This document shows positions 4,723 through 21,897 of a stretch of DNA of 38,349 bases, piece after piece (position 1 is the stretch's first letter; every line of letters begins with the position of its first letter). This stretch comes from Coemansia sp. RSA 487 (Eukaryota; Kickxellomycota; Kickxellomycetes; Kickxellales; Kickxellaceae). The notes under the pieces were generated by a model, which did not search any database, was not told where the DNA came from, and was given only the letters and a program-made list of their open reading frames with translations. The translations under genes and the position numbers were made by a program. Location of the stretch: positions 1-38,349 of the forward strand of contig JANBRJ010000127.1 in NCBI GenBank assembly GCA_027577595.1. Direction: 5' to 3'.

Positions 4723-7700
4723 CTAGTCTTGGTTGGTTTCATCGTCTGAGAGCTCGGTGTTTGCAAACAAGATCTGGCGGTCAACAGGACGGGCGTCGTC
4801 TTCGCCAGCACCGATATGAGAGTTGGCCAATGCATTGGATCCAAGATTTTCTTCCTCTAGGAAATGATTGAATCCGGATTCGACAGCATCATACTCATCT
4901 ATATCAGACGCACTGTCGTTGACATCCAGACCGTGCGACTCAGCGCTAAACAGGTGCGGCCCAGACTCGCTAGTTCGCAGCGGGCGGTATGTGAATCTGC
5001 TGCTACCTTCGCCACGACGCACCTCGTTCCTGGGTCGTCCATCTGCGGCACGCAAGAGAGTGCCCCAACGCGGCGGGTGTTCATAGGACCAGCGCTGCAC
5101 GCGACTCGGTAAATATGGTGCGGCGCGGTCCAGTCCCCAAAGGAATCCTTCCTTAGTAGCGCTGGCCACAGCACCGGCAGTTGACAGGGCACCAAAGAAC
5201 ACAGGCTCGATCTGTTTCAGCAAACCAGAGTTTGCGTTGGGAAGGCGCGCAGCGCTGTAGATGGCCGGACGCACAGCCGCGCCGATATCCTCGAGCCGGA
5301 AGTACGGGTACCGATCGCGCCACCAATTGTATGCGACATATGCCAGCCCCAGGCAAACGACAGGCAGGACCAGGGCCCAAAGGAGAGCAACTGTGCGAGC
5401 CCGCCCGGGGCACCAGACCTCAGTGGCTTTGTCAAGCACCATTCCGCCTTGGCAAATCGACTGCGGAATCTTGCGGTACGCACTCTCGATAACAAAGTAC
5501 TCTTGCTCGGCGTTGGTACAGTTGGTTCGCGGCGCCTTCATGCCCTCAACTAGCACGCACTGGCCCCATGGATCATCGTCTCCAGTAGACTTGCGCACAA
5601 AGTTGTGGTTGCACTCATAGTCGCGCACAGTGCATTCGCAGGTTTCGGAGATGTACCGCACCGGTTCGAACTCGTTTCCTATATAACAGGCGCGATCAGG
5701 CTTGCGGCGGTAATACTGCGCCTTGCGTCCAAGCAGGCAGCCGGATTCGTCGGACTGCTGCGGGTCAATTGGCGTCGAATGGAAGAGCTCAAAGTCCGCC
5801 GAGCCATCCGCCTGCTTCTTTTCGTCAAGCACGCAGATGCGCGGCTGCGCGCCAGTAAAGTCCAGCCCCACGACTATTCCCTTGGGGCTGCCGTCGCGCC
5901 GGCCGTGCAGCACAAAGCGGCGACTGGTGCTGTCGGGGACCGTGGTCAGAGCTTCAACACGGACGCCTTGGGCGTCATGTGGCAGAGGCAGCGGCAGCCA
6001 CGACGCTCCGCGGTCCAGCGAGTACTCAACCTCGGAGACCGGATGGATGCGGTCCGCCACAACGATCAAACTGCCATGGTCGCCAAACTCGTGCCATTTG
6101 GGTCCTTTGCGCACCGACCGCCACGTCGCGCCACCATCGTCTGATAGATATGTGTCGCTTGCGCCGATGCGCTCCAGATGCGTGCCAACGTTGCCGACGC
6201 CCATCAACAGACCAGGTGCCCCAGACGCCGAGTATATGTTTTCCGGATCCGACACCTCGGTGTATCCGTGCAGGTGCAGCGCACACCCGCCAGTGCGTGG
6301 CGCGGTCTGGGTGCACGGTGTTCTATCGCTTACGCGCAGATAGTGCCAGCGCGAGCCGGCATCAACGGTGACCATCGTGCGCAACTGCTTGGGCACTCCC
6401 TTTTCGCGCACAGCATCGGGATTGGATACAACGTTGGCGATAGCCACGCCCTCAAGCGCGCGGATGCGCTCAAAGTCAACAAGTCCCGATTCGTCGCGGT
6501 TAACCAGCTCCAGCGATCGACGGTAGTACGTGCCATTGGAGTTGGACGCATAGATCGTGCCCCACTCGCGCCCTGGCTGACTGCTGGTCGTCACGTGAAG
6601 CATCACGCCGCCACCAGGCATCTTCTGGTTGCGGCCACGCGCGTCGCGGTACTCGAAACCCTCAGGCGGCTCCAGAACAGTGTAAGCGGCATCGAACGTC
6701 CTTTTGTTGCCAGGGAACCGCGCCTCTGTAGCTGTGCGTCCGTCCAGTGACACATGCAGCGTCAGCGCGCGGCCCTCGTCAGCGGACTGTGACACCAGAA
6801 GGAACTCGCCCATGATGGCAAAGTCCGTTGCGTTGCGCACTAGCATATCAGATGTGCGGAACCAGTCTGCGCTGACAAGGACGTCGCCCTCGCCGTCGCG
6901 TGCTGCCGGATGCCGGGCACAGACGATGAGGTTGCGCTGTGCCGCTGTCAGGCGGTCTGTGCGGACGAACGCGCACCCGCCGGCGCCAACAGGAGTAAGC
7001 ATTGTGCTCCAGTGCGCGCCATGGTCGCGCGACACAAACGCCTCAACAAGGCAGTCGCTTGTAGAGGTACAGCCTCCGTTTCTTGGCTGTGCCAGGAAGA
7101 TCAGCCAGTCTGGATACTCAGGATGGAAGAGCAGCGCTGGGTGGTGCAGCGGCGAGGGCAGTGCAGGCAGGTGCAGCGGCCGCGTTGTGCGCCCCGCGTC
7201 GTCGGTGTACAGCGCGACGGTGCCAGCCGATGGGACAAAGTAAGCGCGGTCTCCAGCGTACGGCTGCTGGACGACCGCAGAGAACGACCTTGGCATACCA
7301 TCATTCTCATTTGATTGGGAGCTGTCTGGCATGGGGAGTGCAGCCCACTGGCCGCTGCCGCCCTCATTGAGGCTGACAAGCACGCTTCCTTTCTCTGTAC
7401 GCAGAACAGCGTGGCGTGACTCGCCAAAGTACACAAGCTCAGCTACGGGTGCATCGATCTCAGTCGCGCTGGCATGGATGCCTCCGGCACGGCCGCAGAT
7501 GCGGTCAATGGGAGCTGCCAGGTCATCACCGCCAGTGCACTGGGACTGCGCGATTTTGCGGTATCCCGAGCGGCCCTTGTACGTCGAGCCCTCGCTGCAA
7601 CCCGCGGGCTGGTGCGGATCAGGCCCATCCAGCTCGCAACGGCCGTAGTCATCGAGCCAGAAGCCTTCGTCGCATTCAAAGTCCTGCCACGCGCACTCGC

Positions 7701-10700
7701 ATGTACGTGTGCGCGTCTCTGGCGGATCAAATTCGTTGCCGACATAGCACGCGGCGGACTTTTTGCGGCGCCAATACGACGTGGCGACGCCCAGCGAGCA
7801 GATCGGGGCTGCGCTGCCGGTGCGGTCCATCTCCCAGCGCGGCGTCCACAGCTCAAAGTCGCTGTTCGTGTGGTCTCTGGAGTCCAAGCGGCACTGGCGC
7901 TCGTGCAGCGCTGTGAAGTCGACAGTCACGACAGCTGTACGGTCCTTGACGCCGGAGCTAGTCACCTCGCGTCCGACAAGGGTGATACGCTGTCCGCCGC
8001 CCATAGATCCGCCGTCCAGCAGCTCCTCAACAACAATGCGCACACCTGCGGTGTCAACAAACCGGTGCGTGTGCCATGTAGCGCCTGAGTCGTATGAGTA
8101 CTGGAGCGTGTCGACTGGCGCCGTGTCGTCAACCAGCACCAGCAAACTACCGTGGTCTCCGACCGCTGACTGTGCTTGTGCTGCATGGATCTCGGTCCAT
8201 GCCACGCCGCCATCCGTCGAAATAAATGTCTTGGCGTCAGCGTACCGGCCAATGCGTGCACCAACAGACCCAACGCCAATGAGCAGACCAGGCGCTGCAG
8301 CCGCGCCATATGCTGCGCCGGATGATAACAGAGAAGATTGGCTGTACAGGTTGAGCGAGCAGTCGTCGCAGTCTATAGGCTTTCCAGCGCTGTTAGCAGC
8401 GGGTGGACGCAGCGTGTGCCACGAGCGGCCATCATCCCAGCTCGCAACAGTCTGCAGCTCCTTGCGGACACCTGCGCGGCTCAGTGCATCGGCGTTGAGC
8501 ACGCGGTTGGCCACTAGCACGCCGCTCAGGCCAGCAACACGCTCGACATCGACAGTGCCTAGTCTGTTGCGGTTCGTGTGACGCAGCACGCGGTGGAAGT
8601 GCGAGCCGTTTGTGTTGCTGGCAAACAGCGTGCCCCACCCAGTTCCCCACTCAGGATCGCCCGTGTTGGGCGCACCTTCAACATCAATCAAAATCGTGCC
8701 AGCGTGCGACGGGAGCAGCGTGAAGCCCTCGGCGCGGATGTTGGTGCCTGGCGGGAATCGTGCCGCGTGCGCCGTCCGTCCGTCGTCCGATACAAACAGA
8801 CGCAGCGTCTTGTCAGTACCAACAACGGCTGCCACAATAAAGCGGCTGTAAACGTGGAACCCGACAATCTCGTTGTGCTCGGGGTCTGGTATATCAATTG
8901 CATAATGTTTAGTGTCCGTGAACGGCGTTGGGAACACAAGCAGCTCAATGTAGTTTCCAGGGCTCGGGTGCATGTGCTGTGCATCCTGCTCGTTGTCCTT
9001 GCCACTTGTCAGCTTGTAGTTGGTGCACACGATGGCCTCTTCTGGAAGCGACGAGAACTCGCTGGCTTGCGCGAACCGACACTTGGTCGCATGCGTGGTG
9101 AACCGGTTCCATGTGGCACCGTTGTCGCGCGATGCCCAGAACTCGGTGTGGCAGCCGGGACATGTTGTGCCGCCGACAAACAGCAACCAGTCTGGGTGCG
9201 TTGGGTTGAAGTCGACCAACGGCCGGACGCGCAACCCGTTGGCTGCGCCTGGCAGGTTGCGCACTGTGGCCCACGACGCACCGCGGTCCCCAGTGAATGC
9301 CAGCGTGTCGGCGTCTGTGTATATGAATGCACGCTTGTTGTCGTACTGGTGTTCGGCCAGATACACGGGCTTTCCAATCTTGGAGTTCCCGGTGCTGCGC
9401 GCCAGGTCGATGCGCGTCCATCCAAGGCCCTCGTCGTCGCTGCGGTACAGCTCCTGTGCAGACGTCATCAGAAGATATGAGGTTGTGTTGGGGAACGCCA
9501 TAACATGCACGTCACCATCCAGTGCCAGCGTGTGGTGGCTGATCGATCCAGTCGCTGCCGGGTGGTCACCATTGTTGTTGTGGTTGTGGTCGCCACTGCC
9601 TGGCGTCTGGACTCGCGGACATGGCTTGTCGATAGGCCGGTCGAGCTGCTCGCTGCCTTTATCGTCGAGCAAGCAAGTGTTACCTGGGATCAATCGGTAT
9701 CCAGACGATGCCTGGAAGCGGTCGCCCTCGTGCAGGCACTGGCCCTTGGGGATAACCTCATTGCCTACCAGCTCGCACTTGCGGTTATCAGCGGTAGTAG
9801 GAGCGTAGTTGTAGTCGCACTCAAAGTCGTGCGCTGTGCATCTGCAGTCCTCCTGGCGTGGCAAAAGCACTTGGTCCAGCCGCAGCGTGCATTGGGCTTT
9901 TGGCTTGCGGCGGATGTGCTCGGACCGGTGGCCCATTACGCAGTCGTTGTCCTCATGCGCTGCTAGCACAAAGCTCTCCATATCGGCATTGGCCACAGGA
10001 TCCTTTGGGTTTACAGCGCAACGGCGGCCCCACGCGTCCGTGAAATCGATCGCCACCACAACTTGCTCCTTTCTGTTCATCGCGGTGCCTACCGCAATAA
10101 CGGTCGGGCTGAGCCCGTCGTCGTCAACGAACAGTGCAGATACGCGCACCTTCTCCTTACCTAACGATGTACTCTGCCAAGAGTCACCGCCATCCAGCGA
10201 GTACCGCACCTCATCAGTCCCATCGTCGTTGTCGCTTAGCAAAACAAGGACCGAGCCTGAGTCAGCCAACTGTACATGATGCGCACCGGCATGCACTGCA
10301 GACCATGAGAGCCCAGCGTCTCTGCTCAAAAATACATCGCACTCGCCCCACTTAAGTAGTTTGGGTCCAACACTGCCAACAGCCAACACAGTGCCCGACG
10401 CTGCAGGCTCCCCAAATATCTTGCCACGCGCCCTGCTGGATGTCAGCGAATGCAAATGCAGCGAACACTCGCCCGTGGCCTGTGCATCTTTGGAGCACCG
10501 GTAGCTCTTGCCTTGGGCGTCATTCGCGGGCGGCACAAGGAAGCGCCACCGCGCACCGTCATTGAACGAGATGCGACTGCGAAGCTCCAGCTTATCGCGG
10601 TGGAATATACCGCCTGTTTTTTCCCAGTTGGACACTTGGTTGGCAATCACGACACCTTGTACACCCTGGACACGCTCAAAATCAACGACGCCTGCACTCG

Positions 10701-12012
10701 ACCGGTGTGTGTGCTCCAGAGACTGTGTGTAGTACGTACCATTCGAATTCGACCGGAACAGCGTGCTCGTGGCGCCAGTTGTCGCAGTCAGCACATCGAC
10801 AAAGATCGCATGTTCCGTCGACTCCAGGATTGTGTACGCATCCTCCTCGGCTCCCGGCGGAAGCGGCAAGTGTGACTCGGCCCACGTAACGCCGTCCATC
10901 GACACAAATAGGTCCATCTCCTCCGAGTGTGCGTGGCTGATTGCCGCCAGAACGTAGTTCTTGACAACGCTGACTGCCAGTACGCCGCCACCAGCGCGAT
11001 CACCACCTGTGCCATCGTTGCCTGCCCCAAAGTGTACTGTGCGCTTTGTGCTAAAGAAGTCCTCGGACAAGACCATTTGTACAGTTTTCTGCGTGAACAG
11101 CGAGTCGAGAATGCCGCCAATGTCACTGGATATCGAGCGCTTCCCTGGGTTATCGTGTTCCACAAGTGACGTACCATCGTCTGGATGTGCGGCACGGCGT
11201 TGCGTGTGCTGCCCGACCATGCTGCGTGTGTGCAGTTTGGGAAGCGCCACTGTCGGATGAGTCAAAAGCTGCCGCCTAGTATTGGTGGTTGTGGTGGTGT
11301 TCTTTGATACGACTTCGAGGCAGAAAATGGCTTCCTCGGCCATCGCCTCAAACTCCTTGGTGTGCCTGGCCCAGATGCACTGGACCACTGGTTTGTTCTC
11401 TCCCAGCAGTGCAGTAAGCCCAGCACCCGAGCGGTCGCCCTTTCGGTAGTCGGCCACGGCCTTTTCAAAGCCATCGCGCGTGTAATACGGCTCGTCTGCA
11501 CATACGATGCGTGGCAGCGGCCACCAGCCACCGGTCTCTTCAGTGCACCGCTCAGCGATAAACATGATCCACCCTGTGCGGTCAGCATGGAACGACAGCG
11601 GCCGCTCGCCTGACGATGTCGGCGGCAGGGGCGTACTAAACGCCTGCCATGTTTTGCCCTCGTCGCGCGTCGCCCAATGTTCTGTTTCTGAGGACAGCGC
11701 ATACGCGATCTTGGGCTCGAATGGATGTGCATATAAGCGTGCCGCTTTGCCAGCTGGGATTTCTTCCACTAGTTCCCAATGTGCGCCTGAATCGGCACTC
11801 CGATGCAGCTTGCCATTTGTGCGGTCGATACCCAATAGCTTGGCCGGGTCCTTGAAGTACAAGAGCTTGGAAAGAGGCTCTTTGAAGTACGTGTGTGTTA
11901 TTTTGGGCGCTGAGCCCACGCTCTTTGCAGCGCTGATGGCCACAAAGCAATGCAAAAGAAGCGTAACCGCAATGCAGAGCAATGGGGCGACTCTAGTCAC
12001 CAGTAGCTGCAT
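4723..12012 (-). CDS. VPS10: Vps10/sortilin-type vacuolar sorting receptor with three tandem Vps10 units
   Basis: The product (2,429 residues from the ATG at 12012) has a signal peptide, a huge lumenal part, one transmembrane segment (about residues 2206-2228) and a tail of about 200 residues. The lumenal part contains three Vps10 units. Each has Asp-box turns (S/T-x-D-x-G-x-x-W), the ASNxNGxxxxR and VDxERxxxLxGVxxAN motifs, and a 10CC cysteine module. The units start at roughly residues 35, 826 and 1513, and their cysteine modules at roughly 665, 1374 and 2059. Vps10 cycles between late Golgi and endosome, carrying hydrolases to the vacuole through clathrin adaptors and retromer. The tail has YFRLEDI just after the membrane and an acidic end. 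Yeast Vps10 has two units, so three is unusual. An in-frame ATG at 12084 would add 24 polar residues before the signal peptide, so 12012 is preferred. No introns are needed. Confidence 0.95.
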   Translation of the reverse strand: MQLLVTRVAPLLCIAVTLLLHCFVAISAAKSVGSAPKITHTYFKEPLSKLLYFKDPAKLLGIDRTNGKLHRSADSGAHWELVEEIPAGKAARLYAHPFEPKIAYALSSETEHWATRDEGKTWQAFSTPLPPTSSGERPLSFHADRTGWIMFIAERCTEETGGWWPLPRIVCADEPYYTRDGFEKAVADYRKGDRSGAGLTALLGENKPVVQCIWARHTKEFEAMAEEAIFCLEVVSKNTTTTTNTRRQLLTHPTVALPKLHTRSMVGQHTQRRAAHPDDGTSLVEHDNPGKRSISSDIGGILDSLFTQKTVQMVLSEDFFSTKRTVHFGAGNDGTGGDRAGGGVLAVSVVKNYVLAAISHAHSEEMDLFVSMDGVTWAESHLPLPPGAEEDAYTILESTEHAIFVDVLTATTGATSTLFRSNSNGTYYTQSLEHTHRSSAGVVDFERVQGVQGVVIANQVSNWEKTGGIFHRDKLELRSRISFNDGARWRFLVPPANDAQGKSYRCSKDAQATGECSLHLHSLTSSRARGKIFGEPAASGTVLAVGSVGPKLLKWGECDVFLSRDAGLSWSAVHAGAHHVQLADSGSVLVLLSDNDDGTDEVRYSLDGGDSWQSTSLGKEKVRVSALFVDDDGLSPTVIAVGTAMNRKEQVVVAIDFTDAWGRRCAVNPKDPVANADMESFVLAAHEDNDCVMGHRSEHIRRKPKAQCTLRLDQVLLPRQEDCRCTAHDFECDYNYAPTTADNRKCELVGNEVIPKGQCLHEGDRFQASSGYRLIPGNTCLLDDKGSEQLDRPIDKPCPRVQTPGSGDHNHNNNGDHPAATGSISHHTLALDGDVHVMAFPNTTSYLLMTSAQELYRSDDEGLGWTRIDLARSTGNSKIGKPVYLAEHQYDNKRAFIYTDADTLAFTGDRGASWATVRNLPGAANGLRVRPLVDFNPTHPDWLLFVGGTTCPGCHTEFWASRDNGATWNRFTTHATKCRFAQASEFSSLPEEAIVCTNYKLTSGKDNEQDAQHMHPSPGNYIELLVFPTPFTDTKHYAIDIPDPEHNEIVGFHVYSRFIVAAVVGTDKTLRLFVSDDGRTAHAARFPPGTNIRAEGFTLLPSHAGTILIDVEGAPNTGDPEWGTGWGTLFASNTNGSHFHRVLRHTNRNRLGTVDVERVAGLSGVLVANRVLNADALSRAGVRKELQTVASWDDGRSWHTLRPPAANSAGKPIDCDDCSLNLYSQSSLLSSGAAYGAAAAPGLLIGVGSVGARIGRYADAKTFISTDGGVAWTEIHAAQAQSAVGDHGSLLVLVDDTAPVDTLQYSYDSGATWHTHRFVDTAGVRIVVEELLDGGSMGGGQRITLVGREVTSSGVKDRTAVVTVDFTALHERQCRLDSRDHTNSDFELWTPRWEMDRTGSAAPICSLGVATSYWRRKKSAACYVGNEFDPPETRTRTCECAWQDFECDEGFWLDDYGRCELDGPDPHQPAGCSEGSTYKGRSGYRKIAQSQCTGGDDLAAPIDRICGRAGGIHASATEIDAPVAELVYFGESRHAVLRTEKGSVLVSLNEGGSGQWAALPMPDSSQSNENDGMPRSFSAVVQQPYAGDRAYFVPSAGTVALYTDDAGRTTRPLHLPALPSPLHHPALLFHPEYPDWLIFLAQPRNGGCTSTSDCLVEAFVSRDHGAHWSTMLTPVGAGGCAFVRTDRLTAAQRNLIVCARHPAARDGEGDVLVSADWFRTSDMLVRNATDFAIMGEFLLVSQSADEGRALTLHVSLDGRTATEARFPGNKRTFDAAYTVLEPPEGFEYRDARGRNQKMPGGGVMLHVTTSSQPGREWGTIYASNSNGTYYRRSLELVNRDESGLVDFERIRALEGVAIANVVSNPDAVREKGVPKQLRTMVTVDAGSRWHYLRVSDRTPCTQTAPRTGGCALHLHGYTEVSDPENIYSASGAPGLLMGVGNVGTHLERIGASDTYLSDDGGATWRSVRKGPKWHEFGDHGSLIVVADRIHPVSEVEYSLDRGASWLPLPLPHDAQGVRVEALTTVPDSTSRRFVLHGRRDGSPKGIVVGLDFTGAQPRICVLDEKKQADGSADFELFHSTPIDPQQSDESGCLLGRKAQYYRRKPDRACYIGNEFEPVRYISETCECTVRDYECNHNFVRKSTGDDDPWGQCVLVEGMKAPRTNCTNAEQEYFVIESAYRKIPQSICQGGMVLDKATEVWCPGRARTVALLWALVLPVVCLGLAYVAYNWWRDRYPYFRLEDIGAAVRPAIYSAARLPNANSGLLKQIEPVFFGALSTAGAVASATKEGFLWGLDRAAPYLPSRVQRWSYEHPPRWGTLLRAADGRPRNEVRRGEGSSRFTYRPLRTSESGPHLFSAESHGLDVNDSASDIDEYDAVESGFNHFLEEENLGSNALANSHIGAGEDDARPVDRQILFANTELSDDETNQD

Positions 12013-12585
12013 GCTTTCAATGGTTCTTTTTCGTTTTACTGTGTTGTTATTGTTGTGGAATGAAATGAAAATAAATGAAAACAAGAGATGGTAAAAGAGG
12101 TAAATCTACAAGAAAGGTATACAAAAGAGTCAAAAAGGATATAAAAATCAGTGACGAAACACAAAAAGAGCTACAGAAAGATGCCAAGAGCTCAGCAATT
12201 AAAAGGTCTGCTGGCTTCTCTTTCTGAACCCCGAAGAGCCTAGACATGAAAAGAAAAACCTTTGTAAGGCAGAGGAACCCATTTTCCATGTTTCCTGCTG
12301 CCGTGTTATATCGTTATATTATGTGCGCGTGCATTGATCTGAATAATAAGCTCGCTTGTATCTGAGAGCATTCCACCACAAAAAATTTTAAGCAAGGAGG
12401 GAAAGCCATTGTGAGTGCTCACTGGTAAAAAAGCGTACATATTTTGGATCCAGTGGGAAGAAGTGGTGATGCTGCGTGTGTGCAGAGTGCAAAAAGCTGC
12501 GATCAAGATTGTTGGCTGGGAAAATAAGCAGGGGTGACGATTGAATAAGGAGCACACCGTTTGAGCTGGGGTGTGCGTTTCTGCG

Positions 12586-14506: not shown

Positions 14507-17500
14507 ATGGACGTCGCGGACCTCGACCTTGGCCAGTACGTGTGCCAGCCCAAGCAATGGCATTTCCTTTGGCGCTTCAATGCGCATTACAGAGAAAGAT
14601 AGAAAAATACCTACAAAGCTTCTAATTCACGCTAGCGTCTTTGCATTAATCGTAATGGTTCATAATTTGTAGGCTGCGCGAGCGGCAGGTCAAGGTGCTT
14701 TCGCGCGCACTCAGTCAGTTTGTATCGCTAAAGTCCTCGCCGGAGGGCTGGCAGCCCGTAGCACTGGACAACAGGCTTGCACAGACCGCAAGCATGGGTG
14801 GTGACGTCGACGTCCACATTGGCAAGAAGCCATTGCCTGCACCAACTGCAGCCGCAGCCGCAACTGCAACCACGACATCAGCATCAGCATCAGCAGCAGC
14901 AGCATCAGCATCAGCATCAGTATCAGCAGCAGCAGTCGGCGATGCTAGTATCATCGGCGGTGATGTGTATCGGATGACAGCGTCGATTCCGCTTGACCCA
15001 GATGTCAGCAAGGACACGCAGGGCCCATTCTCTGCTTACCTCTCCGAGCTGCGCGATTGGCAGGCGGTGCTCGAATGCCCGGGCTTGCGAAGCATGTGGA
15101 ACTACTACATCCGGTCGTGCAGCACGCTGGAAATGCTGGATGCGCACACCAGCATTACGCGCGCGGAGCTGCGTAGCCCCATTCCCGGACAGTCCAAAGA
15201 GTTTGCGCACCAGCGCGACATGATGATGGTCGAGACTTCGTTGGTCGACCCAACAACTGTAGTATACGTCTCGACATCTTTGCCAACGACAGAAGATGAT
15301 CCGGTGTACCTGCGCGAGCGTGCGCCATTTAAGCGCGCACACTCTGCGCTGTGGGCCTGGTGTGTGGAAATCGTCACACCGCCCATCGACGCTATCCCGC
15401 AGGCCGCCCATGCGATGGCGCCAGGATTCGGCGCCAGCCAGCAGCTGCTGCGGGCCACAGCCGCAGCATCGTCTCGTGCCAAACCGCGCGTCTGCGTCCA
15501 GGTCACTTGTTTCCTACACCTTGATCTGAACTCATCGTGGAAGTCGAACAATGCTTTGGCGTGCCGTGCTGCTGCAAATCTGATCCCCTCGCTCGTGGCG
15601 CATCTGCGGCTACACGGCGTCCCGCCACGCATAGCAAGGATCGGCCCGTCTATCGCGGTCGATAGAAGCGAGTGGCATCGGCCCGCAGGGGATACGCCCG
15701 TGTGGGAGGTATCGTACTCGGTTATGTGCACACCGTACGCGATGGATGTTCCTGGTAGCAGCAAAGGGCGATGCCACGAATCGTCGGATGCTGCTCGGTT
15801 GCCGCCACCTCTGCTGCAGAGCCGAAGCAGCGCAATGTCGGTTGGCCAGCCGATCATTGCCAGCATCCTCGATCTGGAGACAGCTTCATCTGGAGTGGGC
15901 AACGGCAGAGAATCGCTTGCTCCACGTGGTGCTGCATCGTCTTTGCATACGCGCAAAGTTTCAACGCTGACGTCGTATCTGTCTAGCTCGTTCCAACGAC
16001 GACAGGGCGAGGTCTCCTCGGCATTTGGGACACACGCAGGCGGGATCGTGCGTGACGGCGAAGAGATATCGCTCGTTGTGACGCGGGCGCGGCTCGGAAG
16101 CTGCGTGCTTGAATTTGTCGTGGATGCGTCCAAATGGCACAATGAAGGCCAGGCGGTCGACATAGCGCTGACTCTGTCTGGGTTCTCTAGCGCCGAACAG
16201 CTGTTTACATCGATTTCTGAGATGCAAGCAGCCGCGCCCGAGCTGTTTACGGAATCGCAGCTGCGACTCACGCACGATGATGTTGCGGCAATGATGACGC
16301 CCAAGAAAACAGAAGGAGGTGTATATAAACGTCACTCGCATCACCACCACAACCCTCGGAAGCAGCATCAGCATCAGCAGCAGCAGCAGCAGAAGGTAAT
16401 TGCAGAGCTTGCCGCCATGCAGCTTGTGCGTTGTTTTTCGCTTCCATCGCACAAAAACACACGGCTTCGGTACCTTGTACGTATACTGAACCCACCATCG
16501 ACTGACGAGCGTTTGAGTGCTGGCCATGAGCGCCTTCAGCCAGAAATCGAGGAGAGCAATGGATCAACAAAGCAGTCATTGGACGGCGAGTCTGTTGATA
16601 GGACATACCGCGTCGCTGTTGTTGTGCAGAAAGGCGCCATCGATGACAGTATCAATAACAGCAACAGCAGAGCCACCGGGCTTGTTGTTAACGGATTCTG
16701 CGCCGAAGTGATGCCATTTACGCTTGACCCCCCTACATATTCTGCGCTGAAGCCCAGGACCAGAGCCAGCAGCAATGATGAAAGAATGCTGCACAAGCGG
16801 GCCAGCACACCGGCACCGCGACTGGCAGTGCCTGAACGCAGCAGCGCCCCGCGACTGGAATCTGCAGTTGCAGAAATGACACCAGATGTATATACAGGCG
16901 ATACGACTGACGAGTGTATTGCAGCGCCTGCGATGGAGCTAGAGGATGAGGAGGGGGAGGATATCGAAGGCACACATAGCACTATGGAGATGAACAACAA
17001 TGGCCTGCAAGCGATCAACAGAGAATCAGCCAATGCATCAGCTGGTGCTGAGGATATGGCTGATATTTGCGATATCCCACTTGCGCGGCTTCGGCATGTG
17101 AGCAGGGTGCCTGCAGGTAACTGGATCTCGTTTGGCACCTCGGCTGCAGGGGGGATTGCTATTTCTAGAACAGATGTACGTGCTGGGAAAGAACAGCCTG
17201 TTCTTCGACCTCGACAACAGCAACAGCAGAACCGAGTGCGACTCGGCGATAGCGACAGCGATGCCAACGATACTGCAGGCAGCAGTGTAAGTCTGGCTAT
17301 CGTTGCCGACAGGGGTTCCATTAGCGGCACGGTTTTGCGGGCTGAGGCTTTGGTTGAGGGGTGGACGATATTCGATGTCTTCAGCGTCCTTTGTATCGGT
17401 AATGGACCACAAGAGCACCCAGTGTCTGGGCTGTGGAGTGCTTCGCAGATACTCGAGCAGCTTGCGTCGAACGCCGAGCTGCACCACCGCAAGACATCGG

Positions 17501-20500
17501 GGACATGGGCTACAGCGGCACGCGACGCCGTGGTGTGTCGAGTATGGACGACCAGCAGTCGCAGCAACAGAATCGATGTAGCCGAGTGCTCGGTTGATGA
17601 GTTTGCCAAAAGAACGCAGGACATGCCTGACACAACAAACGCGGTGCGCGCAGAATTGGGGCTATCTGCATGGCGGCTGGAGAAATCCAAGCTGCCGCCA
17701 GTGCAAGAAGGCACCGGTGACCAGCCAAGCCAGCAGGGATATGATGGCACAAGAGACCACGAGAGACGTAGCGGGGATGTGGTGGCTTCTGCGTCGGCTG
17801 GGACAAGACTGCGCAGCACATCAACCACCGGGTCGCCTGCGATTGATGCAGAATTTGAGAACCAGCGGCGCAAGCAGAACGTTGTCAAGATTACACATTA
17901 TCTCAGATACAACCCGCGTGGGTGGCTCAGCCCCGATGGTGCAACAGCGGCTGCTGCTGGTGACGATATGGCAGCCGGCTTCAGACGCATGGGCGCAGCA
18001 CTTGGGCTTAGTCCATCCTCGCAGCCAGAACAGCAGCAGCAGCAGCAGCAGCAGCAGCCAAACGTGCAAAGCATGCATGATGAATCGGCGGTGTTCCAGA
18101 CGATGCTGCTGCCAATGCTGAAGGATGCGGTTTGCAGTGACATCACCCGTGTTGTACAGCATCTGGACCAGCATGGCGCGCGTCCGGCAGTGGTGTGGTC
18201 GCGGAATGCCAGCGTAGTAAGCACGGACGCTACAAGTGACGGCGTGCAGGTGCGGTACCGGCTAGCGGGGTGGGGTGCGACAGGGTCAAGCAGGCCGTCA
18301 GTGGCTGAGACGCTGGAGCAGAACGAATTCGTCGAGATCGAAGTGCGCATCGAGCACCGCGTCTGGGCGCACGGACACCGCACCGGCGGAGCGGCGGAGC
18401 GCATGTCGCCTGCATCGATCGAGATAACAGCGGAGCCGTTCTATGAGACATCCGCGGTTGCATGCTATGTTGACCCAGAGTCTGATCCGCATGCAACTCG
18501 GGTGCGCATCAGCCACCACCGGTCGCAGCTGCTGCCTCGTGTTGAGGAGTCCGACGGCGGCATATTCATGGCCTGGCCAACTGTGCGGCTGGCAGTGAAT
18601 CGGCGTGTAGACGACGCAAAGAAGACGCCATTGTCGACGTCGTCGCTAGTGCTGCCTGCTGCCATGTCGCCATCTTCCAAGCGCACTGCTTCTTCGCCCA
18701 TCGCGCCATGGTCGGTGCCGCCACGGATGTCGGTGAATTTGGTCGATGCACGCGTGAGGTACTTGCGCAGGGACAGCACGGGGCATGCGTTCTATGCACG
18801 CTGCCAGTCTGTGGCGCGCAGGGACGCCGCACGCCTGGTGTGTGGCCCACCGCGTGCGGGCGAACTGTTTATGGAGCGACTGCTCGATCCCGTTCCGCAG
18901 CAGCCAGGCGCATCTGCGGCTACAGCCCCCGTGCAGGCAGTCAGCAGCGACAGTAGCGGAGATGGCGACGATGGTAGCTGTGTGGATGGCGATGCCTCGC
19001 GCATCGCAATAGAAAAGTACTCTGTGCACGGAACCGGCCACCATCGGGTGGCAACGCCCAACCAGTTTGCCAGCGTTATGTCCGGCGTGTTTGCACGGAT
19101 CCGGCATGAGCTCGAGCTGGCTGATCCGCAATCTGCGCGCAGTCGCTGGGATAATGTGCGGCGCCAGCAGCGAGATTCAGACAAGTGCAACGGCGACAGC
19201 GATGCCCGATCAGTCGCGTCATTGGTGACGGCAATCGCTGACGAGGGGTGGTGGAGCGTGCGTGGCCAGCCCGGCGGCGAACATGCCGCTACGTACCAGC
19301 GCGTTGTCGATGGGCTTCACAACGAGATTCCAGTCACCGTGGTCGTCGATGTGCTGCAGGGCGTCAGCGCAGCAACAGTGGCCCGGCTGCTGGAGCAGCC
19401 ATGGGAGCACGCGGACTGGGACACGATTCTGTTTGATGGACGCAAGCGGCGCGAGATTGAGTATGTTCCAGGCACGGCTGGCGGCGTTGGCGTGTGCTAT
19501 TCGTCCGTGCATGTGCCATTGCTCTGCGACCGGCGCGATGCACTAACCGTGCGAGCGACAGAGCGGGCGGCGTTCCTGCCAACGCGCCGACGGCTGCGCA
19601 ACTGGGAAGCGTCCCATTGCGCACGCTCGGCGGCGCCATCCGGACTGGCGGGCGTGGCAGCGGGGTGCGGCAACAGCGCTGCTGCGCTAGGCGACTGCCA
19701 CGACCCGACGTTCACTCTGGTCGAGGCAAGCATCCCGGGGTCGCAGCCGCTGTCGACCGCTGTGCGGGCAAACGTAGCGCTGTACGCCGTGCGCGTCGAC
19801 CCCATTGACGCATTCGAGCGTGTTGTTGGAGGGCGGCCGCTGGCGCTCCCGTCGTGCCGCATAACCATAGCGTGCTGCGTTGATCTGGCTGGCGCCATGC
19901 CGCTACCGCTACGCCGCGCAGCCTCTGCACGAATCCCTGGGCAGCACATTGCGCAGATGCGCGCGCGCCTACTGCAGCCTCATGCTCCGTCACCGCTGTG
20001 GCCTCTGCTCGAGGCGCCCTCGCGTTGCCGCCGCGTGTTGCCGCGCTGGGCCGGTTCAAGCGGCGACAGCACTGTTGCGGCTGAGGTGAGCGAGCAAGTC
20101 GTCGACGGCCAGCGCTTGGCATTCCACACGACGCTTGACGGGCTGCGGGTCGTGCACGAAGCAGTCGTCAACAAAGACAGCAGAAAAAGCGCAAGCTACG
20201 TATCTGTTGTTGTGCTGCCTGGCGCGCACCTGCATGGATCGGCGGAGGCCAAAGCGTTTGCCGATGCTGATTTCCATCTCTGCAGCTTACGCAAAGACGG
20301 CGATGCTTCGGACTCCGAAACTTTCCCACCCCTGCACAATGCTGGCGCAAATGGTGATGCAGCATTATCGCTGTCCGCATGGTCTCTGTGTCTTATCCCG
20401 GTCGTTTCCGATGTTGTCATTGACAGCGCCACCAGCTGCTTCCCGCATGGCTTTGACATTAATGTGAGCACAAGCTTGGCAGCGTCGGAAAATTCGCAGC

Positions 20501-21897
20501 CAATCGCGGAAGCTGTCTTGGGAAACATTGCTTCTGCCTGCGACAGAGAGCCAAGCGCTTTGGGGAGTGGCAAGCGTAGGAGAGGGTCGTCGTCTCGCGT
20601 GGCCGACCAGGCAGCGGAAATTCCGGCTGCCAGGTGGATTGGTGACGCCGGCGCGCACTGCCGCTTGGCGGTCTATGTCTTTGCTCATGGACGAGACAAC
20701 AATGGCAGCAACCCTGGGGCGCCAGCAAGGTTCCTTGTTCGCACAGTGCTTCTTCCGCCAGACCACGAGGATGGCTCTGCAGAACTCCACCACCAGCGCA
20801 CATCGCCAGAAAAGACAGGTGGTGCCATTGGAAGCCAAGCTAATAAGCGTCAAATGACAGCAGCTTCATGCACGATCGTTATTCGGGCAGCATGTGAAGA
20901 TAACTACGCACAGATCACCGCTATTTCTACTGCCTCTGGGTCAACAGCAGCGGGTCTTGCGGCGTTGGATCCACTTGACACCGCTAACACACAGAACGAG
21001 CGTGACATGCCTGCTGTGTGGTGCAACGGACAAAGACTGCGTGTTCATGAAGCGATGCCACCCAAGCAGTCGCTGTTGTTTGTCGCAACCACCGAGGGCG
21101 AGTATCTCGACGCATGCCACGAGTGCGGAGGGTTTAGATGCGATGCCCACAAAGCTTCTTGCGCGAATAGCAGTAGCGACAGCGATAGCAATGGTGTTGC
21201 TGTTGTCGGGTACGCATCGGACACGGATGAGGTTATTTTGCATGACGGCGGCGGACTGGCGGCTGCTGAGCAGCAGGATGCCGATAACGACGACGACGTG
21301 GCTGGTGACAGGCACGAGCTGCTGCAGCACATGGATATTGACAAACGCCAATATACTGCGCCCATGCTTTTGGCCGGAGACGGTGGCCAGTCATCGCCAC
21401 CTTTAGCAGTGACAGCAGCAGCGCCAACAAGTTCCCTTGTCGCTGGCCAAGGGCTTCTTGGAGCAACGCTTCGCCGACGTATCGCTGGCGTCTCCAGCAG
21501 AAACAGCAGCACGTCGGCCGGTCTTTTGACAGCCACGGATAACGACGGCAGCACAAACCCAACAAACACACCCTCCTCTTTTAGTGTTGGCATGCGGCGG
21601 TGGAGGACGACAGAAGCAGAGGCAGATCCGGATAAAGTGAGCAGCCATTGGACGGCGGACATTGCTGGGTGGATACCGGTCAAACGGGTCGTGTTTGCGG
21701 CATTCCTCCCTGTGCGGCGGCTGGTGATTGGCAGAGTATCCACAGGGTCAAGCGAGCCCGCTGGCGCTGTTTCGGTGGCGGCTGTCGCCACGAGAAAATC
21801 GGTGCTAGCCCTGGTTCTGATTCTTGTCGCCGCCGGCGTCTGCGTGCTTATTGGCATGCGAGTGTGCGAGCTGCTGGTTATCGCCCATCTGCCGTGA
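14507..21897 (+). CDS. Giant multi-START-like lipid-binding protein with a C-terminal membrane anchor (two exons)
   Basis: I propose exons 14507-14535 and 14673-21897, giving 2,417 residues; joining them creates a Gln codon and reads LRERQVKVLSRALSQF. Residues about 149-359 form a START-like domain: STLEMLDAHTSITR, then REF-like and RDMMMVE motifs, YVSTSLP and WAWCVE, followed by a helix. A second START-like region spans about 900-1320 (SGLWSASQILEQL, WATAARDAVV). A third spans about 1523-1782 (EIPVTVVVDVLQGVSA, PWEHADWDTILFDG, VPLLCDRRDALTVRA). Linkers are Ala/Ser-, His/Gln- and Gln-rich. Residues about 2387-2405 are a single transmembrane helix followed by 12 residues, as in tail-anchored proteins. 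START domains bind sterols, phospholipids or ceramides, so cytosolic lipid handling at a membrane is inferred. The exact lipid and organelle are unknown, and the domain limits are approximate. Confidence 0.78.
14536..14672 (+). other. Predicted 137-nt phase-2 intron of the multi-START gene
   Basis: The long frame has no early ATG; its first in-frame ATG would be at 14794. A GTACGT donor at 14536 follows a 29-nt exon starting ATGGACGTC, and a TTTGTAG acceptor ends at 14672 with branch-like ATTAAT about 20 nt upstream. Splicing joins the frames exactly. Confidence 0.65.

Follow-up and report, generated by a model that had tools for sequence, protein, structure and literature searches.

The window analysed here, a 38,349-nucleotide stretch of Coemansia sp. 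RSA 487 DNA (contig JANBRJ010000127.1, read on the forward strand), contains a two-exon gene whose product bears similarity to START domains and ends in a hydrophobic segment. The simple-sequence inserts in the list below were seen in the translation.

14507-14535, + strand: exon 1 (29 nt; residues 1-10), from ATG to a GTACGT donor, with an in-phase join
14536-14672, + strand: intron (137 nt, GT-AG, GTACGT...TTTGTAG)
14673-21897, + strand: exon 2 (residues 10-2417 and stop), a single open frame of about 7.2 kb
14827-14955, + strand: Ala/Ser-rich insert (residues 62-104)
14956-15678, + strand: START-like region 1, tentative (residues 105-345; +7.1 bits over the control mean)
16333-16392, + strand: His/Gln-rich insert
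17269-18213, + strand: START domain, region 2 (residues 876-1190; +27.6 bits), enclosing the stretch reported by Pfam
18031-18060, + strand: Gln-rich insert
19204-20043, + strand: START-like region 3, probable (residues 1521-1800; +12.2 bits over the control mean)
21802-21858, + strand: predicted transmembrane helix (residues 2387-2405, VLALVLILVAAGVCVLIGM; Kyte-Doolittle mean 3.05)
21859-21894, + strand: C-terminal tail (residues 2406-2417, 12 residues)

When positions 14507-14535 are joined to 14673-21897, the translation runs in frame through 2,417 residues, and the codon of residue 10 straddles the intron, taking its last base from exon 2. This spliced model agrees with the gene coordinates and the length of about 2,400 residues proposed in an earlier interpretation of the bare letters (the sequence-only reading). 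Taken without splicing, the + strand frame ending at 21897 comprises 2,400 codons from a GTG at 14695 and 2,367 from an ATG at 14794, and its longest open stretch corresponds to 2,413 amino acids. As far as the sequence goes, we consider the gene real and its exon/intron model confirmed, with the ATG at 14507 as the predicted start and the ATG at 14794 as an alternative. If the gene were fast-evolving, dispensable or in decay, its frame being open by chance, it might likewise contain low-complexity inserts such as those found within or between the START-like regions, and might lack relatives, as was the case in the virus and prokaryote collections scanned. However, viruses and prokaryotes are all that those collections comprise, and decay would be expected to bring stops into a frame that is in fact open throughout more than 2,400 codons. 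Third codon positions are moreover 61.6% G+C (1489 of 2418), compared with 51.8% for the window, and we regard this reading as very improbable.

A Pfam scan of the open reading frame from 14695 assigns the whole protein to the START family (PF01852) with 34.9 bits (E 1.3e-8), above the cut-off of 22, and residues 11-1299 scanned separately score 29.9 bits. The sole START stretch reported in the whole frame covers residues 934-1016 (17443-17691 of the window), which lie within region 2 and within the second region marked by the sequence-only reading. The only other Pfam family listed, Tail_completion_gp17, falls below its cut-off (E 0.032) and is taken as a chance match. Shorter segments are mostly silent: START went unreported in all six protein pieces of one Pfam scan and in eight of the nine of another, including a 1,200-residue piece spanning regions 2 and 3 (residues 700-1899), and it went unreported in each of the three regions scanned alone. 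Similarly, a genome-wide search with PF01852 listed only one ordinary START gene, designated L001, with the window gene absent from the matches; such genome searches begin with a loose first look, and their counts are lower bounds.

Because HMMER discards weak pieces before full scoring, we used a carrier test, in which each region is fused to the START domain of L001. The carrier scores 64.2 bits for PF01852 by itself and 61.2-62.7 bits (mean 61.8) when fused to any of 12 controls, namely three reversed regions, three spacers and six shuffles; none of the three spacers raised its score. Increments are given over the control mean, also for regions with inserts left out; the scores of half-regions are set against a baseline of about 63 bits, estimated from length. 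A second profile was built from two sequences, a CERT fragment and L001, and its scores were compared with those of 1000 shuffles.

Region 2 raises the carrier to 89.4 bits (+27.6), with two START stretches reported, and reaches 92.8 bits once its inserts are left out. Set against the estimated baseline, the scores of its N-terminal half (86.2 bits) and C-terminal half (64.6 bits) indicate that the gain comes mostly from the former. The profile of CERT and L001 gives 14.4 bits for this region, a score equalled by none of 1000 shuffles, and without inserts the region scores 16.0 bits and clears all filters. An RD pair is found at residues 960-961, and the segment VVKITHYLRYNPRGWL at residues 1080-1095 resembles, by eye, the C-terminal START hallmark. 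Used as a query against the genome, region 2 finds a weak match to the gene of L001 (E 0.265), along with a match, through its Gln-rich insert, to a stretch on C35 (E 0.253). Even without inserts, region 2 scanned alone is still not reported by Pfam, which is surprising given its +31 bits in the carrier; we provisionally take this silence as an effect of the HMMER filters, but the profile of CERT and L001 lets the same piece through every filter. These similarity scores identify region 2 as a START domain.

Region 3 yields 74.0 bits in the carrier (+12.2), again with two START stretches reported, and 76.4 bits (+14.6) with its insert left out. Both halves contribute, at 72.0 bits for the N-terminal and 67.1 bits for the C-terminal half relative to the estimated baseline of about 63. 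The region contains an RD pair at residues 1631-1632 and the segment CRITIACCVDLAGAMPLPLRR at residues 1738-1758. With the profile of CERT and L001 it scores at shuffle level, 51 of 1000 shuffles reaching at least its score, as did 66 of 1000 when the insert was omitted and 45 of 1000 when the profile also included region 2.

Region 1 contributes less, with 68.9 bits in the carrier (+7.1) and 70.3 bits (about +8.4) with an insert left out, at which point a second START stretch is reported for the fusion. Residues 11-36 look by eye like a possible N-terminal START helix, parted from the region by the insert at residues 62-104; adding residues 11-62 to the trimmed region brings no rise in the carrier score (70.1 bits). 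Relative to the estimated baseline of about 63 bits, the gain comes from the N-terminal half only (70.0 bits, compared with 63.4 for the C-terminal half). An RD pair occupies residues 191-192. The profile of CERT and L001 places region 1 at shuffle level (its score was matched or beaten by 51 of 1000 shuffles, and by 65 of 1000 without the insert), and once the profile also took in region 2, 137 of 1000 shuffles did as well or better.

The proposal of the sequence-only reading that the protein carries three START-like regions is thus partly confirmed by these scores, and unevenly so: region 2 is borne out, region 3 is a probable START domain and region 1 only a tentative one. A more restrictive alternative takes region 2 for the only working START domain and treats the other two regions as degenerate or unrelated segments with incidental weak START scores. 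Consistent with such a view, the increments of regions 1 and 3 in the carrier test stay below Pfam's 22 bits (+7.1, or about +8.4 without an insert, for region 1; +12.2, or +14.6, for region 3), both score at shuffle level with the profile of CERT and L001, and a triplicate of either is not reported as START in a Pfam scan. Nor was the fold seen in single-sequence AlphaFold2 models of residues 11-345 (mean pLDDT 35.5) and 1515-1800 (mean pLDDT 37.0), a confidence at which the models speak neither for a helix-grip fold nor against one. Yet all 12 controls hold the carrier at 61.2-62.7 bits, region 3 gains in both of its halves, and regions 1 and 3 by eye display an RD pair and a hallmark-like C-terminal strand and helix in START order. 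We judge the restriction to a single working domain to be unlikely, and a multi-START architecture probable.

In each of the three regions, an RD pair is followed further on by a strand, then by a turn of the form D/N-x-x-G/S and by what may be an amphipathic helix, an order read by eye against the START hallmark pattern. Single-sequence pairwise profile alignment of regions 1-3 with each other gave no clear similarity and no sign of internal duplication; the best-scoring pair in that comparison was region 2 and L001 (probability 13%, E 0.0022). A MAFFT alignment of the three regions placed the RD pairs out of register and is not meaningful. Three sequence searches of the PDB, one per region, listed 1, 0 and 19 rows with no START chain among them; we attribute the antibody chains matched by region 1 (E from 0.03 upward) to chance. 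Searched against the genome, neither the full-length protein nor region 1 or region 3 matched anything but itself, and no paralogue emerged. Relatives were sought in viral and prokaryote contig collections with region 1 and with the alignment of CERT and L001, and in plasmids with the START domain of L001, and none emerged. The name 'Bet v1-like' is in use for proteins in fungal databases and may cover an annotated orthologue.

The helix at residues 2387-2405 is the highest 19-residue Kyte-Doolittle peak of the protein; the peak at residue 1908 reaches 1.90, and one at residue 1562, within region 3, reaches 1.68. The expectation of a C-terminal helix followed by a 12-residue tail was upheld by this hydropathy contrast (3.05 versus 1.90 for the next peak), the one criterion applied to it. 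The protein may be tail-anchored, a class defined by a single transmembrane helix within about 30 residues of the C-terminus and by none elsewhere. Upstream of the helix, a Cys/His-rich stretch, DACHECGGFRCDAHKASC (21109-21162, + strand; residues 2156-2173), could, to judge from its composition, bind metal. An FFAT-like motif, EYLDACH (residues 2153-2159), overlaps this stretch; 0.12 such matches are expected per shuffle, and we do not use the motif as evidence.

The carrier test and hydropathy support the original picture of a membrane-anchored chain with more than one START-like module, firmly for region 2, probably for region 3 and tentatively for region 1. The accompanying statement that one domain is the norm for START proteins should be qualified, in that passages of PMC12493155 and PMC12705765 describe yeast Lam2 and Lam4 as having two StARkin domains together with a C-terminal transmembrane segment. 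Lam/Ltc proteins more generally are characterized there (PMC12493155) as combining GRAM with either one or two StARkin domains and as ending in a predicted transmembrane segment and a short tail; Lam4/Ysp2 has two StARkin domains plus the C-terminal TMD. The nearest precedent for the window protein is this Lam2/Lam4 architecture: according to the same passages, Lam2/Ysp2 and Lam4 have more than one StARkin-superfamily domain per chain, as is probable here, and a C-terminal membrane helix with a short tail, as predicted here. A C-terminal transmembrane helix, as in LAM/GRAMD1 proteins, is present by hydropathy. However, LAM/Ltc/GRAMD1 proteins have GRAM and VASt-type domains, the latter being the subject of PMC4082322, whereas the window protein has neither listed and its match is to canonical START. 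GRAM is absent from the two Pfam families listed for the frame at E up to 10, a listing from which HMMER filters drop many weak matches. No VASt-type StARkin domain appeared in the Pfam scan of the frame, nor did Pfam list for it a PH, GRAM or other membrane-targeting domain. Because GRAM and VASt are not listed, we do not file the protein as a LAM member; because of region 2, we file it as a START-domain protein.

Among other genes of the genome, the VASt match resides in a separate one, L003 (688-3366, - strand), which has a hydrophobic segment near its C-terminus and, by eye, a GRAM-like N-terminus, and which is probably the LAM-type protein of this genome. L001 and L003 are the one canonical START gene and the one VASt gene listed, both counts being lower bounds. 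The 372-amino-acid START frame of L001 (1108-2226, - strand) has, by eye, a hydrophobic segment at its C-terminal end with an Arg-rich tail after it, so that L001 too may be tail-anchored. It thereby resembles the window protein in combining a START domain with a hydrophobic C-terminal segment, and differs from it in having one clear START match (63.7 bits in the genome search) and no giant architecture. CERT/STARD11 and other single-START proteins are like region 2 in their Pfam START assignment and in the match to a profile containing CERT, but have one START domain each, unlike the multi-START layout that is probable here. CERT is targeted to membranes by a PH domain and an FFAT motif, neither of which is established in the window protein. 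To our knowledge, START/StARkin lipid transfer proteins carry one or two such domains. The open-access literature searched, which takes in few subscription papers and no fungal sequence database, yielded no description of a three-START protein from a fungus, nor the wording 'tandem', 'three' or 'multiple START domains'; the phrase 'two START domains' occurs in PMC12705765 and PMC4226900, and 'several START domains' in PMC9678365.

The reading that we tentatively favor, with a little less than even confidence, is that of a multi-START protein tethered to a membrane, binding lipid and probably transferring it, which would make it an unusual relative of the proteins that pass lipids from one membrane to another. 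The open frame, the START similarity (firm in region 2 alone) and the hydrophobic C-terminus are seen directly in the sequence, whereas the tail-anchored topology, ER location, lipid binding and transfer, any hand-over from module to module, and the contact-site relay or multivalent sensor of the sequence-only reading are inferred. The modules are about 530 and 330 residues apart, with about 590 residues from the last of them to the membrane. The C-terminal anchor would keep an otherwise cytosolic chain on one organelle, probably the ER, where each competent START module would most likely pick lipid out of a membrane and the modules would exchange it between the anchored membrane and a neighbor, as Lam2/Lam4 do with their two StARkin domains; the protein could plausibly work as Lam/Ltc proteins do. 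An alternative that we find rather unlikely is a lipid-gated scaffold, in which one or more START modules bind ligand without transferring it and binding alters the recruitment of partners on the membrane by the linkers and inter-module segments. The wide spacing and strong divergence of the modules, their long inserts and the large share of linker in the chain are compatible with such a role, and START domains have been proposed as ligand-responsive regulators of adjoining domains (PMC3127847). Nonetheless, the chain has no catalytic or signaling domain above the Pfam cut-off, and hence no obvious output to gate.

For the favored lipid-binding reading, a stronger version would have this protein represent a fungal tail-anchored class in which a single chain holds three canonical START domains, all of them working and each with its own function, that serve different lipids or hand lipid along the chain across a contact site; this we consider doubtful. 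If true, a three-START chain on one anchor would raise the question of whether cavities in cis trade lipid or serve different lipids, and a non-LAM design would be added to fungal membrane lipid traffic.

The neighboring frames of the window encode an SDR, a Vps10-type sorting receptor, an ABC transporter, a sub-threshold bZIP match, a Na/H exchanger, an NAD(P)H-hydrate dehydratase, 3HCDH and LigB, with no apparent functional link to the START gene. The receptor frame (4726-12084, - strand; 2,453 residues) contains three near-complete VPS10/sortilin units, its thirds scoring 345-395 bits for PF15902 and 99-130 bits for PF15901. Yeast Vps10 carries two units of this kind, which makes a receptor with three of them unusual.
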